64,000 nucleotides of DNA from Liolophura sinensis. Taxonomy: Eukaryota; Mollusca; Polyplacophora; Chitonida; Chitonidae. Under the pieces are notes generated by a model, which was not told where the DNA came from, searched no databases, and saw only the letters and a program-made list of their open reading frames with translations. Location of the stretch: NCBI RefSeq assembly GCF_032854445.1, contig NC_088304.1, forward strand, positions 29,023,732 to 29,087,731. The letters run 5' to 3'. A program made the position numbers and the translations under genes. Shown here in pieces: positions 2,240 to 55,810 of the stretch; the first letter of the stretch is position 1, and each line of letters opens with the position of its first letter.

Positions 2240-5200
2240 ATGGGCAATATACACACTGTGGGGCCAAATGAAGCTCTGGTCATTTCGGGTAAGCATCTGC
2301 GATGTTTCGTTGCCTGATCTGTAAACATTGGTGAACAAACTGGCCACTACTTTCGGTGAATGTGAAATCTGGGTTTGTTTTGCTTTTACAACAACAACTA
2401 CAATCACTACCCAGGTCGGCGTAGGAGCTACGTGATACTAGCCCAATGGGGAATTTTAAACGTGAGGGTGGTGTCACGTGGTGAATTGAAACGTCAATTC
2501 ACTAAAGAAGCAGCTTTTCACAATGAACATCTGAGAAGGAGCTCATTGACTAACAGTAGGGTCAACCTAGTCTTTACAGCTGCCGCCCAATGTCTTTTTG
2601 AAACTGTATCTGCCTAAGAAATGCCATCAGAGTTTTGGAAAGTAATTGTAGCAAACAGTTTCGTCTTCCTTTTTCGTAGCCAGAATTTACCTGGAGAACT
2701 CGAAAGGAAATAGGTCGGCATGTCGTGAATAAAATATGCTCAAAGTAAATAAATAAATAAATAAAAAAAATTTAATTAGTCTAGAAAATGAAGGGAATTC
2801 CCCGTTTTATTCAGCATTTAACATATACCTGCTTATGTGTATTTCTGTTTGTAATCGTTATACATATGTCAAATGGAAGAGATTTCTGAAAACTACCACG
2901 ATTTACTTTTACCCCTTTTTGGTAGCACTGTGCACGTGCCTTGCGTAACAGGAGACAGGATTTGTTTAAGTTGTTATCACATTAGGAATTTCACCACACT
3001 GTAACAGTCACCTTTATAAACAAAGTGTTTTATGATTTCCTGTATACAGTTTTGCCCAGATTTGATTTACGTGTCGCCAGCGACAGATAACATTATTGTT
3101 TTGCCGTTGGCCATTAAAATTCACGTGATTGTTGGGTAGACATGTGGAAATTTCAAATCCTGTGATTGTAAGTGGCTTATAGCTACATGTAGATAAAACC
3201 AATCTGTATGACTAAAATTTCATCTGAGGGGACTTGATTAAATATTAAGTAAATTAAGCATTCATGTTAACGAGATATGGGCAGAAGTTGACAGTCTTTC
3301 AAATTACATCAGGAGGAACAAGAAATGTTTAGCTGAAATGGTGCAAACGCACATGTGTAGGTGTCGCTTCGATCGCAATTTGACGTCTTCATCTCATCTC
3401 CTGGTAGGCCTGGTTTGTAAGTATGGATTTGTGGTGTGCTAAATTCTGTTACAGCTTTGTACATGGAGAGCCCTGCAGTTTAAAAAATGAATATTTGATA
3501 TGACTCTCCACATGCATATGATAATGCTACTAGGTATTCACACTTAATCTCCACAGAGTTTTCCCCCTAATTCATGTGCCTATGGGGCCTTGAAAACCAT
3601 GTAAAACCAGGAATTTGAAAATAAAGTTTCTAGGCCTTGAAAAGCCTGTAAAATCATTTTTTTTTTTTTTTATTTTCTTATAGTTGGGCCCAGAAAAGCC
3701 CTGAAATTGAGGTTACTGTTGATAGTATGTTGACATTCATTTCCAGAAATGTGTTCTCGAACACCTTTCAAATTGCTTGGCGCACAGCTTTGTATTACAT
3801 TGTTCTAAGTGTGTATAAAGTGTAGAATATTTATTCCAAGTCTGTGGTAAAAAGACATGTGACTTTATAGAGCTGTGCTGTGTGTTCTTAAGGTGGCTGT
3901 TGTGGGGCACAGAACAAGAAGATGACTATAGGAGGCTGGGGCTGGGCCTGGTGGCTGGTCACAGATGTACAGAGGTAAGTCCTGAGTTTGTAAGAGTGCT
4001 GCTGGTTGGCTCCTATTTTCTCCATACATAATCCCAACCTCTGTATTACAGCAAAATAAGTGAGAAATTCTTAAGCACGACATAAAACATTAATGAAGTC
4101 AAATAGCGATTTGCTTAGCACATTAGCCTCTTTTAGAACATTCAAGAGCATCTGTTTGTGCAACTTTACATGATAACATGTGGGGTTGGGAGTTAAATCT
4201 GTGTAGTCAGCTTACATGGATATAAGGAATTTTTAAAAATATTTTTAAAGTTAAATTTATGAGGCAATATTCTCCATAATTTGGGTTGCCTTAAGGTGCA
4301 TTTTACTTTGGGCACATGTATATGGTATCAGAAATATTCTTGTATTTGGTCCTGGGGCAGTATTATGGGTTGTCTCAGAATTTGTCAACTTCTTGACCAG
4401 CACAGGTATATGCACTTGGTATAGAAAAAACTGTATTAGACTTATGCGAAAGACAGCACTGCAATAAATTTAAGGATTATGGTGTCTAAATACATGTGGA
4501 AAAGATTTGACAGAAAGTTACTATAAAAAAAAATATGGAAGATGGATCTCAAATATGCTTTGCCAAGACTTCAGTTTCTTGTTTCGAGACAAGAATGCTC
4601 GAGCATTGTGTTTTTTTTTTTTGTTTTCTCAGTGTGTAGCTTTCATAAGTGTAAATTCTGTCTTGATTTTCCAGGATCTCTCTGGAGGTGATGACCTTGA
4701 ACCCAGTTTGTGAACACGTGGAGACATCGGAGGGCGTGCCCCTGACCGTTACGGGTGTGGCACAAGTCAAGGTGATGACTGACCCACCAGACCTGCTGCA
4801 GACCGCGTGCGAGCAGTTTCTTGGGAAGCGTGTGGAACACATCGAACATGTCATTCTGCAGACACTGGAGGGTCATCTCAGAGCTATCCTGGGTAAGTCC
4901 CACATTCTCTACAAGAAGGATCTAGCGGTAGCTTATTTATTTATTTATTTATTTGATTGGTATTTTACGCTGTACTCAAGAATATTTGACTTACACTACG
5001 ACAACAAGAATTATGGTGGGAGGAAACCGGGCAGAGCCAGGGGGAACCCATGACCATCTGCATGTTGGTGGCAGACCTTCTCACTTATGCCCGAAAAGGA
5101 ATCCAGCATAAGCTGGACTTGAACTCACAACGTCGGTGTTGGTGAGAGGCTCCTGGGTCATTTTGCCGTAGTGGCATGCTAACCCCCTCGGCCACCCAAG

Positions 5201-22700: not shown

Positions 22701-25700
22701 TGAACCGTGGTTTATTTAATATAACAGTACTATTAACACCTGGTTTGTCATGGAGCTGAAGTAACATTTTAATGACTGGACATGAGGTCATAACATGGGG
22801 TCATGGGACAGGATGTCAGATGTACTTAACATCAGGGGAACCCAACCGCACTAATAGACGACATATAGTGGTGAAAGTATTCTCAGCATAAGGGGAAATG
22901 TATAGATTATTTCCAGACCACTGTGTCATGATTCAGATTAGGGTCAACGTTTAGGTTAGTGTCCTATTCAAGTTGGTGTCATGATCCAGACTGGTGTCAT
23001 GATTCAGAATGGAGTCCTATTCAGGTTGGTCATGATTCAGGTTGGTGTCCTATTCAGATTGATGTCCTATTTACGTTGGTGTCCTATTCAGGCTGGTGTC
23101 ATGATTCAGATTGGCCTCCTATTCAGGTTGGTGACATGATTCAGATTGGTGTCCTTTTCAGGCTGGTGTCATGATTCAGACTGGTGTCATGATTCAGAAT
23201 GGTCTCGCAATTCAGGTTGGTGCCGAAATTCATCCAGACGGAATGGTCCAGATTGGTGTCATGATTTAAGTTGGTGTCATGATTCAGACTGGTGGTATGA
23301 TTCAGACTGGTGTCATGATTTAGGTTGGTGGCATGATTCAGAATGGTTTCATGATTTAGGTTTGTGGCTTGATTCAGACTAGTGGCATGATTGAGACTGG
23401 TGACATGATATACATTGGTGTCATGATTCAGACTAGTGGCATGATATAGACTGGTGGCATAATTCAGACTAGTGGCATGGTACAGATTGGTGGCATGATT
23501 TAGACTGGTGGCATGATTCAGACAGGTGTCATGATTCAGAATGGTGTCATGATTTAGGTTTGTGGCTTGATTCAGACTAGTGGCATGATTTAGACTGGTG
23601 ACATGATATACATTGGTGTCATGATTCAGACAAGTGGCATGATATAGGTTGGTGGCATGATTCAGACTAGTGTCATGATTCAGACTGGTGTCATGATTCA
23701 GACAGGTGTCGTGATATAGGTTGGTGGCATGATTCAGACTAGTGTCATGATTCAGACTGGTGTCATGATTCAGACTAGTGTCATGATTCATGCTGGTGTC
23801 ATGATTCATGCTGGTGTCATGATTCAGACTGGTGTCATGATTCAGAATGGTGTCGTGATTTAGACTGGTGACATGATATACATTGGTGTCATGATTCAGA
23901 CAAGTGGCATGATATAGGTTGGTGGCATGATTCAGGCTGGTGGCATGATTCAGACTGGTGTCATAATTTAGGTTGGTGGCATGATTCAAAATGGTTTCAT
24001 GATTTAGGTTGGTGGCATGATTCAGACTAGTGGCATGATTCAGACAGGTGTCGTGATTCAGACTGGTGTCATGATTCAGACTGGTGTCATGATTCAGACA
24101 GGTGGCATGATATAGGTTGGTGCCATGATTCAGACTGGTGTCATGATTCAGACTAGGGGCATGATTCAGACTGGTGTCATGATTCAGGCTGGTGTCATGA
24201 TTCAGGCTGGTGTCATGATTCAGACTGGTGTCATGATTTAGGTTGGTGTAATGGTTCGTGTACACAGATACTTTTCTTACCAGCATGAGCTTCATATCTA
24301 TGAGGAGCCAATCGTAATGCCTCACGAAAATGAAGGAGAGCTTCTGGGATTTTCTTAAGCTCTACAAGAGCTGACCCTTTCAGTAACAATGCCTCTATAT
24401 TCCGACTGTCTTTTGCGTAAGCCTGTAACAAAATCAAAGTTTACTTAGCTTCTTAAGTTTAAACATAATCATGCCGGAGTGGGTTCATATGTCAGAAGAA
24501 CTTTGGTATGTCCTCGCTTAGCATAAATGGATAGGTAAAGTGCTGAAGAGACAGTCCAGAGGCAGTGTTGTTCCTGACATAACACTCCACTACAGCAGCA
24601 CTGTAAATATGTCAGCATTTGGATGGATCTGCTAGAAGGATACACAAAAGATCAAAATAAACCAAGCTATGTTAAAAAATAGACAATCGATCCTCTTCAC
24701 ACCAATCTAGATAATCACAACCTCAATGTCCAAAAAAATAGAATGCTAATGTTAGCAGAGACAAGAAGTTCTATAAGATGCCAAGTCAATTTTCTGACAT
24801 CTTATCTTTTAATATGGGCCATTCACAATTCACTGATTGCCAGTGAAATATTCTTGAGTAGGGTGAAGAAAGACAGATATGATTTCGCTTTCATCACGCG
24901 TCGTGCCAGCAGTGCCATCATCATCTGGCTGAAGCTGGGATTCTTGCCTTAAGTGTCATTGTACCTGCACGTTACGTTAAAACTACACTTGGTAGTATTG
25001 TATCCAAAGAGCCTGCCCCCAGGAGACAAAAGTTCAATACATAACGTACATAAACATAACGTACTTTAACACTGATTTCAATACACAAGAGGCTAATTCA
25101 TGTAAATTTTTAGTTTATGGTAATTAATATTCATGAATGAATGAATGAATGCTTAGGGATTTTATGTCGTACTTAACAATTTTTCAGTCATATGATGACG
25201 AAGAGTCATTAGGTGCGTGTTCATATAATGTGTCTTCTTGTGGCGGGCCGAGTCTATGCACCCAAAGTGCTGCCGCCACTGACGCAGAAGACACCAGTCA
25301 TTACACCCCACCCAGTCACATTATACTGACACCGGTCCAACCAGTCATGTTTCCTTGCTCTAACCCCTCAGTGCCGAGTGACAAACGAGGCAGCATCAAG
25401 TACCATTTTTGAAGTCTCTGGTATGACCCGACCCAGGTTTGATAACACGTCACCCAATGCACGAGACAATGATGAAATTCCTCTCATGTTACTGTGTTTA
25501 CCATATGGCAAATTTTCTTCATAAGATAGCACCATTAACATTTACCTTAACAGTGCTGTACACTCAGACATGAGCTGCTTTGGATGCCATCACCAACAAT
25601 CTAGGTATGACATCAGCCCATGCATGTTCTTCCTACAAGCAAGCTAAAAATGTCATGAATATATCACAAAAAGGCCATGAATTTTTTTTGAAATCTGACA

Positions 25701-50559: not shown

Positions 50560-50705
50560 ATTTATTTATTTATTTATTTGATTGGTGTATGCTCCATGCT
50601 CAAGGATATTTCACTTATACGATAGCCATCATTATGGTGAGCGGAAACCCATGACCATCCACAAGTTACTGACAGACCTTCCCATATACGGCTGGGGAGG
50701 ATATC
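50560..50705 (-). mobile_element. SINE-A, 5'-truncated
   Basis: A (TTTA)n tract, then a GATTGGTGTATGCTCC stretch, GATATTTCACTTATACGATA and a GGAAACCCATGACCATCC stretch. It lies just beyond the LRR-gene stop and its A-rich tail supplies several AATAAA motifs on that gene's strand. Confidence 0.8.
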
Positions 50706-50965: not shown

Positions 50966-53900
50966 TTAGTACCACACCTTGCCGAAATTTGGCAGTAACA
51001 GACACGGGTCAGGTGGGGCTACACCAGGGTCTTCTAGACCTCGAAGTACCACCGTGCACCCACACTCTTTTGCTAACTCGTGGATCTTCTTGCGACCGTT
51101 TTTGGAGACTCTGTGGTCAAACATGTCCAGGTGCTGGAGTTTGGGGGCGTTCTCAAGAAGTCGAACCACACCCATCTCGGAGATTCCTTTGATCATGCTG
51201 ATATTCAGGTGTGTCAGGTGTGCACAGTGCTTGGTCAAGGCCCTCAGTGACCGCTCCGTCAGATGAGAACATGCTGCCAGATTCAGGCTTTCTAGTCGGG
51301 GTAATTTCTGTCGTCAACAGCAGAAAGTAGAAATCATGAAGACACTCTATCATAGAATTATTTTCACTGTGGAATGGTGCTAAACCATTTCTGTTGTGTT
51401 GCATTGCCTGGTAACTATCATCACAATTTGGTAGTTCCACTGACAAAATTTTGCACAAAACACAAGAAGTTTATGCCAAAAACGTAAAAATTGCATAGTG
51501 TATTATCACCATGATCAGTTGTTTTGTTTCATCATGCCTAATATAACATCAAGTTTTAATGTAACATTAGGCTATATTAAGCCACAATTAAAAAAGTCAC
51601 TAATTAATAATTTATTTGGTGCTGCATTATGGGTCTGTTCTGAAATGTTTCTTGTTCCATGATACATGCACCAATTCCACTTTTTTTTTTCAAATTATTT
51701 ATTCTTTTTATTAGTTTATCATTTAATTTCAGTTATAATCGTGGTCTGGATATATTTTTGGAAAAAGTGCATAAATGTAGGGTTGTATGGTTTCCAGAAT
51801 CCTCAGGACAAAGTTCCAAATTGGAAGTTGAAGTAAGATTGACCAGTTCAGTGGTTCAGTCCATGATTTAATATTTTTATATATATATATATATATATAG
51901 ACGACCTTCAAAACATATACATCTTATATGATTTAGAACCCTTGAGACAATGGTCCAATTTAGAAGTTTGAGTTAGGGTCAACCAGTTTGGTGCTTTAGT
52001 GCATGGTTTAATAGACGTGTAAAAGTTACACATCAGGGGCCAACGACCGGCTCTGGTAGCTCAGTTGATAGAGCGTCGGCTTCGGGAGCGGTGGATCTAG
52101 GATCAATCCTGGGTCGGGTCATACCTAAGAACTTAAAAGGGGAAGTTGTAACTTCCTTGCTTGGCGTTCAGCATTAAGGGGATAGTGCAAGAACTGGTTG
52201 ACACGTATCAGTATAATGGCTCGTGCGGTGCGGCTTACTTGCCTTCAGTAAAGCGTCTCAGTGAAGCAGCACTAGATAAAAGAGCCGTGGAAATCCGTCC
52301 TGCAACAAGGAGGCACATTACATGCACTCTAAAGACTCCTTCATGGTCAAATTGTTGAGTACAACGTTAAGCCCCATGCACTCCTGCACACGCTAAGGAA
52401 CCCATTGATGTTGATGTGGGGGAGGGGCTGTGGGACTTTGACCACCCACTTAAGTGTTGGGTCTGATATTCCTGTAGAGCACAGCCAGATCCTAGCTGAA
52501 TATCCTATGCCCATCGTGGCTGGACCCTCCGAGTATGGTCCAGCCATCACACACAAAACCTGGTCCACTCCCTGTTACCAGTCTGATGTAATGATACACC
52601 ACTGGTACATGTACTTGCACCATGAGTGTATCATTTTGCCATCAGAATTTGCCAGTGTTCGTGCGGTGTTTTAAGAAAGTATTTACAGCAAATCTGTCGT
52701 GTCTTCATGTATTGATGAGAAGTATATTTTCCTGCTCGACAATTTCCTGCAAAAATTTCCAAAGAACATGCTCATGTAGCAGTTATGTTGATGTCCGTAA
52801 GACCATTTGCCACAGAATGTCTCCCTGTGATGGTACAATGAAACATAAACAGACCATGGTCAGACATACATGTAGGTTGTTGGGATGTAGTGTGGCTGTA
52901 CATATTGAACTGTTAACATGGTTATACTGGAACAAGTTATTCATTAAATTGCCTCACTTACCCTGGCTATCTGCTCCAACAGGTGGTCATTCAGAACATA
53001 CCCACAGTCCTTAAAACTGACTACCCGTAGCCGAGAGCAGGTATGACAGATGTGCCGAACGACCCCTTCGGTCAAGTAAATACCCTCGAGATCCAGGTGC
53101 TCCAGTGCTGGGGTCAGGACACTTCTTAACACCTCACTGTTCAGCCGCTTCTCACGCTTCAGCCGGTGCAGAATAGAACTGGAGGCAAAACACAATATGA
53201 CAGCAAGCCTCAATGTCGTAAGACTGCTTCGATGGAATAATGGTTAAGCATTGACCTCGAAGTTGGGAGACCCAGGATCAAACCCTGGTTGGGTCACAAC
53301 AACTCGCTTGGCACTAAGTACTGAAAGTTTAGAGCAAGGAAAGGGGCTCAGTGTTGGTATAATATGATTGGGTGGGGTGTCATGTCTTGTGTCTTCGGCA
53401 TGACACTTCAGTGGTGGCAGCATGGACTTGCCCTGCCACACGAAGACACAGTAGGGCCTATATTTGATTTATTTATTTCATTGGTGTTTCATGCGGTACT
53501 CAAGAATATTTCACTTATACGACGACAGCCAGCATTATGAGGGGTGGAAACCGGGCAGAGCCTTGACCGTCCACAGGTTGCTGGCAGACCATCCCATGAC
53601 TCGTCGTCGTTGTCATATGACTGAAAACTTGTTAATTATGACATAAAACCCAAGCATATATAAATACGTTTTATGGTACATGGTAAGGTCTTGCAGCAAC
53701 CTGCAGATGGTTGTGGGTTTCCCCTGGGCTCTGCCCGTTTTCCTCCCACCATAATGCTGACCGCTGTCGTATAAGTGAAATATTCTTGAGCACGGCGTAA
53801 AACACCAATCAAAAAAATAAATAAATAAATATGTTCTATGCTGTAAGTGTGATATTGTATATCATATGTTGTGGTGCTATACATCTTTTTTGTTTCTTTC

Positions 53901-55810
53901 AATTATACCATTCTGGACGTATTACATCATGATGGATTTAGTGATAGATTGCACCTCTGAGAATCTGGGAACAGTAACAATAAAAGTGAACCATAAAGCA
54001 TCTTATTTATATCACACCCGACACTTATTAAATTTTTCTGCTATCTACACATACTTTAAAGGATGCATAAAAATGCTTTGTTTTTATTTCTTAAGACGGA
54101 GTTTAGGATCTGGCCTAACATAGCTTCTCAACTTTATGCATAGCACAATATGCATAGCACAGAGAGGTTATTAAGAAATATAAAATATGCATAAAAAATG
54201 AAAAACAATTTCCTCAGTTTTTGGCACATCGGTCTTCAATTTCCTTAAAACGGTACTCTTCATTTTCTTGTATCTTTTCACGTATTCTTTAATTAAAAAA
54301 AAACTCTTATGGCAAGTTTACCATTTTTTTTATCCCTTGGTTTATGGAAATTCAAGACATTCTTTATATAGCAAAAGAAGACAAAACTTGTTTTCTTTCC
54401 TTACTTGATGAGGTATTCGTCAGGAAAACCATCCAGGTCAAATTGGTTGATATTGGTGCAGATGTACTGAAGACCGGATTCCATCAGGGTGGGAACTTTG
54501 GTTCCGTCATGGAATGGATTCTACAGTAATACCCAAGCCGAGGTACGAAAACGGATTAGACTGCTTGCTTTATATAAACTGAACATTTTGACATCTGGGG
54601 TCCTGTCTTGAAGGGTAGAGATTTTCCCCAAATACATTTCCAACAAATACATTTGTAATGAAGACCTACGTGACATTAGACGACACACTGACCATGAATA
54701 GAGCTTTCAACCTAAATGGCAAATGGTCAGGTCCCATGACATCTCATGATCAGTGTCTGTACGTATGCACGAATGTGGAGATACTGGTCTATTCTAGCAC
54801 TATTAATTGTATATGTCTCTTTGAAAAAGAAAACATCGGTAAACAGACAAATCAACGTACAAGTTCAAACCTGCGCGCGAATCGGGCTCTAACGTAAACA
54901 ACCCCATCTTCTTCTTTCCTCTCGAATCTGAGTGGACCTCGTTTTGAATGTGACGAGTCTATTTCTTGTAACACTTCCTGTTCAGTGTGTGACTTCATCA
55001 AACGGTTCTGCAGTAACTCGGAGAGACGGACAAATCCTGTAAACATTAGGACACAAGAAACAAATGTTAGCTTATTCACTATGTTTGATGAAAATCTGAA
55101 ACAATTTTTTAGAAGCACATTAACGGAAACAATATTCGATTATGTTAGACTACGCTGCAAATGAATTTTCACAATGTATAAATGATGATAATCACAACCA
55201 GTACATTGTTGCCATCAAACAATAATGCAATACACTTTATAATGTTAACTGTCTCTGACACACTCAGAAAGCAGGGATAATGGGACATATATGATAAACA
55301 AATGCATAGCATAAAGTTCCCGTAAGCTCGAGTCCAGCTCATAGTTCCGGCCGTACGTGGGAACGTCTGTCAGCAACCTGTGAATGGCAGTGGTTTTCCT
55401 CCTGGCTTTGATTGGTTTCCTCTCACCACAATGCTGGCCGTCGTCGTATAAGAAATATTCTTGCGTACGGCGTATAACGCCAAATAAATAAATAAAAAAA
55501 GAAAAAGAAAAAAGGAGCAAAAAGAAAAACAAATATAAAAATAAATAAAAAGAACGCTATTCACATAAGCTGAAATCAACCTTAGGTCTGCAGTTCATAT
55601 TTATGAATGAAAACAAGGGCAGAAGAACCATACAAAAGGTCATCTGTATATATTACCTGCCCCGCACACCCGCATACCCTCCTTGACCGCTCCGTACCTG
55701 AGCAAATAACACAGCCGTGAGGTCAATCTGCTGGTTAGTGCACCGACCTGGACACCGCGATAAACCGCTCTCTTGTCCATCAAACTTTCCACCTGGCATG
55801 TTTCAGGCAT
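50966..55810 (-). CDS. LRR protein with a KptA/Tpt1-like N-terminal domain, complete, 5 exons
   Basis: I do not recognise an orthologue. Exons: 55810-55657, 55036-54861, 54520-54405, 53178-52962, 51307-50966; phases agree, 334 aa. The Met at 55810 is the first after an in-frame TAA. Residues about 25-108 resemble the N-terminal winged-helix half of tRNA 2'-phosphotransferase: LTSRLCYLLRYGAVKEGM, GFVRLSELLQN, HTEQEVLQEID, PLRFERKEEDGVVYVRARF. The family's Leu-Arg-His reads Leu-Arg-Tyr, and the Arg-x-Asn-Gln-Gly-His motif is reduced to VRARFARR. The ADP-ribosyltransferase-like half is absent. After a linker (NPFHDGTKVPTLMESGLQYI), residues about 175-315 are cysteine-type LRRs of FBXL/AMN1 style: LEHLDLEGIYLTEGVVRHIC, LRVVSFKDCGYVLNDHLLEQ, LESLNLAACSHLTERSLRAL, LTHLNISMIKGISEMGVVRL, LQHLDMFDHRVSKNGRKKI. 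No F-box is visible. An RNA-binding or adaptor role is only a guess. Confidence 0.85.
52048..52390 (+). mobile_element. SINE-B, full length, in LRR-gene intron 4
   Basis: It has a good tRNA-like head, CTCTGGTAGCTCAGTTGATA and GGATCAATCCTGGGTCGGGT, then GCGGCTTACTTGCCTTCAGT and a shortened tail. Confidence 0.9.
53215..53460 (+). mobile_element. SINE-C copy
   Basis: The tRNA-like head contains GGAATAATGGTTAAGCATTG and CAGGATCAAACCCTGGTTGG (B-box). The body has TATAATATGATTGGGTGGGG and CTTCGGCATGACACTTCAGT. It is shared with the copies at 25130 and 61360. Confidence 0.8.
53463..53600 (-). mobile_element. SINE-A, 5'-truncated
   Basis: It contains TTGGTGTTTCATGCGGTACT, CAAGAATATTTCACTTATAC and GCCAGCATTATGAGGGGTGG. 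A family B tail fragment follows at 53598-53660. Confidence 0.8.
53685..53832 (+). mobile_element. SINE-A 3' half
   Basis: It contains GCAACCTGCAGATGGTTGTG, CACCATAATGCTGACCGCTG and TATAAGTGAAATATTCTTGA with an (AAAT)n tail. Confidence 0.88.
55322..55495 (+). mobile_element. SINE-A, 5'-truncated, in LRR-gene intron 1
   Basis: It contains CGAGTCCAGCTCATAGTTCC, CACAATGCTGGCCGTCGTCG and an AGAAATATTCTTGCGTACGG tail with A-rich end. Confidence 0.85.

Follow-up and report, generated by a model that had tools for sequence, protein, structure and literature searches.

The window, by which we mean the whole 64,000-nucleotide stretch of Liolophura sinensis DNA analyzed here (C10:29023732-29087731 of a 609-Mb genome), carries on its minus strand, at positions 55810-50966, a five-exon gene model that joins the RNA lobe of a Tpt1/KptA tRNA 2'-phosphotransferase to leucine-rich repeats of the type found in FBXL proteins. 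We regard it as an even call that this is one gene, in which the first two exons of a TRPT1 gene and the repeat exons of an FBXL-like gene were joined within an intron, and that its product would be a non-enzymatic reader of RNA phosphates or an adaptor. The product is best read as a catalytically dead RNA-phosphate binder placed on a protein-interaction scaffold.

According to this explanation, an old copy of the gene for TRPT1 (tRNA 2'-phosphotransferase) would have given the first two exons and an FBXL-like leucine-rich repeat gene the remaining ones, the joining having occurred inside an intron. Through its two remaining arginines, the RNA lobe would hold an RNA that carries a phosphate, either at an end or in the 2' position, and the repeats would hold a protein, so that the whole would act as a reader or adaptor. 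The transcript as drawn, the RNA binding, and the protein partner are parts that we infer.

Gene model and coding potential

The gene model (Table 1) starts with ATG, comprises 1005 nt including the stop codon, and encodes a predicted product of 334 residues with no inner stop. GT-AG borders were present at all four introns, whose phases are 1, 0, 2, and 0, and GC content was 45-56% in the exons vs 35-40% in the introns. Under a simple model of neutral change, simulated 4000 times at each of three mean residue identities (66%, 46%, and 25%), the 334-codon frame remained open 2, 0, and 0 times, respectively, and the 110-codon lobe alone 149, 23, and 10 times. It is unlikely that the frame would have remained open by neglect. 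When the protein was compared with the genome, the best five of at least 20 matches listed were the gene's own exons, and the remaining fifteen listed had 25-38% identity, all of them in the repeats; no second copy of the gene was found among the at least 20 matches listed.

Table 1. Exons and other features of the gene model, in positions of the window
Feature	Position	Strand	Description
Exon 1	55657..55810	-	ATG; residues 1-51; first helix of the Tpt1 RNA lobe (LCYLLRY; Arg38, Tyr39); phase 1 at its end
Exon 2	54861..55036	-	Remainder of the RNA lobe, GFVRLSELL to VRARFARRFEL; Arg84 or Arg88
Exon 2 phases	54861..55036	-	Phase 1 in; phase 0 out with the GTACGT donor; alternative donor after 54871 gives phase 2
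Intron 2	54521..54860	-	340 bases; meeting point of the Tpt1-derived and repeat-derived parts
Exon 3	54405..54520	-	Linker and helical front of the repeat half (VPTLMESGLQYI...FPDEYLI); from frame and splice sites
Exon 3 skipping	54405..54520	-	Possible in frame with the alternative exon-2 donor
Exon 4	52962..53178	-	Last part of the front and first leucine-rich repeats
Exon 5	50966..51307	-	More leucine-rich repeats, C-terminal tail, stop codon
Possible polyadenylation signals (AATAAA)	50565..50578	-	~390 bases beyond the stop; weak because inside a simple repeat

A Tpt1-type RNA lobe and FBXL-type repeats in one gene model

Residues 1-110 matched a single Pfam family, PF01885 (Tpt1/KptA), with E=1.8e-8 and 35.1 bits against a curated cut-off of 26; residues 28-103 aligned with profile positions 5-78 of 177 only. 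A PDB search with residues 1-110 at E<=10 returned six matches, all of them Tpt1/KptA chains, the best being TRPT1 chain 7yw3 (E=7.5e-4; 20/62 identities, gapless). The NCBIfam Tpt1 match, at 13.9 bits, was far below its cut-off of 231. The preliminary description of this DNA had made its proposal depend on a KptA match in residues 25-108, which was found above the Pfam cut-off; its further statement that the likeness to Tpt1 was almost residue for residue overstates an identity of ~32%. An AlphaFold model of exon 2 alone, made without relatives, showed a helix-helix-strand-strand order with a mean pLDDT of 68. None of the 162 matches of this model in a fold search reached E<=0.001 (best E=1.6), so structure contributes little on the lobe. 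Beyond this genome, searches of viral contigs confirmed no relative of exon 2, and those of viral contigs and prokaryote genomes none of exon 5.

Residues 111-334 matched FBXL2 (E=5e-17), FBXL17 (E=2e-13), and SKP2 (E=1.6e-12) in the PDB, which identifies the repeats as of the FBXL type; Pfam repeat (LRR) models were below their cut-offs (best E=1.3e-5). Given the PF01885 and 7yw3 matches of exons 1-2 and the FBXL matches of exons 3-5, the likeness of each half therefore exceeds chance. The fusion put forward in the preliminary description was thereby borne out by an open frame across five exons and by matches to both families. An exon-5 model had alternating strands and helices (mean pLDDT 64). 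Foldseek with this model gave 0 of 1347 matches at E<=0.001; leucine-rich repeat chains were among the top rows. Coupling factor B ranked 8th in the list and FBXL17 19th, the latter with a probability of 1.00 and a query TM of 0.60.

No F-box scored above its cut-off (the top score, 11.5 bits vs 20.5, was located inside the repeats), and none was found in residues 111-181; membership in the F-box/LRR proteins by way of an F-box was rejected. The 71 residues running from exon 3 into exon 4 had no credible family or PDB match. An Elongin-BC/VHL-box front was also considered and dropped, as the four PDB matches of residues 111-181 (E<=10) included none of that kind; the Cys of the motif is Gly in exon 3. 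The repeats had earlier been assigned to the FBXL/AMN1 type, of which the AMN1 part proved too specific. Human AMN1 best matched a separate locus at C1:67784850-67787089 in three pieces with 42, 44, and 63% identity, and the window gene was absent among the 19 genome matches to this query, so AMN1 membership was rejected. The gene resembles AMN1 in what is presumably the layout of the latter, a repeat-only body with no F-box detected, and differs from it in that the genome has this distinct AMN1-like locus.

The NAD lobe was searched for and not found. The Pfam match ends at profile position 78, tblastn of the window with the NAD-lobe exons of another locus gave nothing above chance (best 20.4 bits), and all four matches of those exons in the genome were on C6 and C13 (three at C6:510-512 kb and one weak match on C13, E=0.37), with none on C10. 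An NAD lobe encoded by another exon was thus rejected for the window and for C10. Pfam, tblastn, PDB, and genome searches agree with the earlier observation that, in an open chain of five exons, the Tpt1/KptA RNA lobe is followed by leucine-rich repeats instead of an NAD lobe.

In CthTpt1, three members of the essential tetrad belong to the RNA lobe (Arg18, His19, and Arg68), the fourth being Arg121 (PMC6333775), and in human TRPT1, RNA ADP-ribosylation is abolished by alanine at any tetrad residue (PMC6582358). By alignment, Arg18 corresponds here to Arg38 and His19 to Tyr39. Arg68 corresponds to Arg84 in the ungapped alignment and also in alignment A1, where it is one of five invariant columns, or to Arg88 with a preceding gap; this dependence of the placement on a gap counts against the explanation that we favor. 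The Arg121 equivalent is absent along with the NAD lobe, which leaves the Arg-His-Arg-Arg tetrad as Arg38, Tyr39, and Arg84 (or Arg88) with the fourth residue missing. The change of the tetrad His to Tyr and the replacement of the Gln-Gly-His motif had both been described correctly; that two of the three essential residues of the RNA lobe are retained (Arg38 and Arg84 or Arg88) corrects the earlier account.

By our placement, Ser10, Lys11, Lys66, and Tyr80 of CthTpt1 (the last being Gln78 in RslTpt1) correspond to Thr30, Ser31, Ser82, and Phe104, and the alteration of several RNA contacts (Lys11, His19, Lys66, and Tyr80/Gln78) is a further point against the favored explanation. Single alanine changes in RslTpt1 at the equivalents of Ser10, Lys11, Lys66, and Tyr80 are reported to give near-quantitative product at 1 mM NAD; alanine at Lys62 (equivalent to Lys66) was weaker at 0.1 mM NAD, and alanine at Lys9 (equivalent to Lys11) caused mild temperature sensitivity in yeast (PMC6333775). 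The 2'-phosphate is held in Tpt1 by two arginines, both apparently retained here, and it is possible that these two could grip a phosphate. Because the NAD lobe is missing and the tetrad His is Tyr, the product should be unable to perform the Tpt1 reaction as known, and Tpt1 chemistry by this protein is very unlikely.

Intron layout and probable origin of the front half

Four other loci in the genome, three on C6 and one on C13, were above the PF01885 cut-off, and the lobe studied here is 18-24% identical to their lobes. At all four, the exon starting with GF or GY is entered in phase 1 and, by our reading of the donors, left in phase 0. The donor of the preceding exon is in phase 1 at the three loci where that exon was found; the first exon of the C6:513-kb locus was not found within 3.8 kb upstream. 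The exit lies seven residues past Arg-Ala or Lys-Ala at three loci and ten residues past at one. In the window gene, intron 1 is in phase 1, one codon farther on than at the other Tpt1 loci, and the GTACGT donor puts intron 2 in phase 0, eight residues past Arg-Ala. That the positions are one or two codons apart and do not coincide exactly is a point against common origin; we read the two introns flanking the second exon of the lobe as probably those of the other Tpt1 loci, slightly shifted. The common phases and near-matching positions suggest that the lobe goes back to a TRPT1 gene and that intron 2 is where it became joined to the repeats, and the low identity to the genome's other lobes suggests that the copy is old. 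The intron layout that the gene has in common with the other Tpt1 loci, and the TRPT1 ancestry to which it points, are what is new here.

At C6:467-476 kb, two RNA lobes lie in tandem (76 and 80 bits), and tblastn found no NAD-lobe exon near them in C6:441200-476000. This may be a second case of an RNA lobe alone; a divergent or more distant NAD lobe would also account for it.

Alternative explanations and significance

The splice from exon 2 onward is the weakest link of the fusion and is not proved. Two neighboring genes or transcripts would account for the same DNA if exons 1-2 made a lobe protein by intron retention and exons 3-5 made a repeat protein from a start of their own. The exon-2 GTACGT donor is weak, as 14 of the 122 GT sites in the stretch, itself included, score at least as high by a donor matrix, and translation running on beyond exon 2 would stop two codons later, so a lone lobe of 112 residues is also possible. 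The alternative donor, which lies ten bases upstream, scores about as well by the same matrix (17/122) and, with in-frame skipping of exon 3, gives 292 residues, but both in-frame chains fuse the two halves. The short length of intron 2, the fitting phases, and an open frame in exon 3 with no ATG ahead of Met123 favor one transcript. Between 54700 and 55899, all four segments of 300 bases had a CpG observed/expected ratio of 0.7-1.2; of the 13 such segments between 50800 and 54699, 11 had a ratio of 0.15-0.62. This higher CpG in the 5' part than in most of the 3' part fits a single unit, weakly. Separate transcripts are quite improbable in our estimation. A pseudogene or annotation artefact would be in keeping with the lost catalytic residues and with the lack of a second copy among the at least 20 genome matches listed, but 334 codons without a stop or frameshift, a whole frame that stayed open in no more than 2 of the 4000 neutral simulations, and the GC difference between exons and introns make this very improbable.

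It could also be that the fusion is real and the lobe a leftover winged-helix fold that serves for folding or protein contact, its RNA binding lost. The changes at the equivalents of His19, Lys11, Lys66, and Tyr80/Gln78 and the low identity to the genome's other lobes speak for such a remnant; the apparent retention of both arginines that contact the 2'-phosphate, and the place of Arg84 among the five invariant columns of alignment A1, speak against it. We consider a lobe of this kind unlikely, yet worth serious weight beside the favored RNA-phosphate reader or adaptor.

The gene is assembled from known parts. It resembles Tpt1/KptA/TRPT1 (PF01885; PDB 7yw3, 6e3a) in the above-cut-off sequence of its RNA lobe with two of three essential residues, and the genome's own Tpt1/TRPT1 loci in the near-identical introns around the lobe's second exon; unlike these enzymes, it has no detected NAD lobe, has Tyr for the tetrad His and a replaced Gln-Gly-His motif, and carries leucine-rich repeats. 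With the F-box/LRR proteins FBXL2, FBXL17, and SKP2 it shares the repeat type, whereas it has no F-box above the cut-off and has a Tpt1 RNA lobe at its front. A literature search found no Tpt1-LRR protein, the nearest in idea being LRRC9, for which a pseudo-ADP-ribosyltransferase lying between leucine-rich repeats has been predicted (PMC7955679). Both proteins would combine a probably inactive relative of NAD-using modifiers of RNA or protein with leucine-rich repeats; going by its description, LRRC9 is set apart by an ART-like domain between two sets of repeats, whereas here there is an RNA lobe only, at the front. When the full protein was scanned against Pfam at E<=10, no ART-like family appeared. 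Unnamed database entries with the identical layout may well exist.

We think it rather unlikely, if conceivable, that the protein is an animal RNA-end reader of a new kind, in which a lobe freed of its NAD lobe by the intron join would bring phosphorylated or 2'-phosphorylated RNA to a protein held by the repeats. With the C6:467-476 kb locus as another instance, the lobe may be a reusable module. Should RNA binding have been lost, the gene would still be a clear example of exons joined at an intron. If it has been kept, a Tpt1 RNA lobe naturally parted from its NAD lobe would mean that recognition of RNA phosphates alone is useful to an animal cell, and it would offer a ready-made probe for 2'- or end-phosphorylated RNAs there.

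Additional features of the window

The open frame with a match to the Band_7/SPFH profile scored 23.4 bits, slightly below the cut-off of 23.6, and looks like a flotillin-type exon. The long frame on the opposite strand, built of repeated LNHDTS-like units, resembles a minisatellite more closely than it does a gene. Within intron 4 of the main gene, a stretch similar to the 5' part of a tRNA (GGCTCTGGTAGCTCAGTTGATAGAGCG) is perhaps a tRNA-derived SINE. No tRNA was predicted by ARAGORN in the whole 64,000 nt.

Coordinates of features in the window and at Tpt1 loci elsewhere in the genome (L025 and L026, stretches of contig C6; L028, stretch with the Tpt1 locus of contig C13)
Feature	Location	Strand	Size
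Band_7/SPFH-matching open frame	window 4667-4900	+	
Repetitive open frame	window 23141-24361	-	406 codons
tRNA-like stretch	window 52050-52110	+	
Tandem repeat, C13 locus	L028:3825-4730		93-base unit, 9.8 copies
Tandem repeat, C6 locus	L026:3429-4376		70-base unit, 13.9 copies
Two consecutive Tpt1 RNA lobes	C6:467-476 kb (L025 and L026)	-	

Tandem repeats at the Tpt1 loci

The 93-base unit includes the NAD-lobe motif stretch with HIHF, and the 70-base unit includes the end of Tpt1 exon 1 together with its splice donor (HSAEDYGLTLMSG, then GT...). The latter repeat is a minisatellite that arose from an exon border.

Paired RNA lobes on C6

The two C6 lobes matched the Pfam profile PF01885 at 76 and 80 bits, and Leu-Arg-His is unbroken in both. 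No NAD-lobe exon was found by tblastn in the surrounding stretch (C6:441200-476000). This locus may be another gene that has RNA lobes and lacks a NAD lobe.
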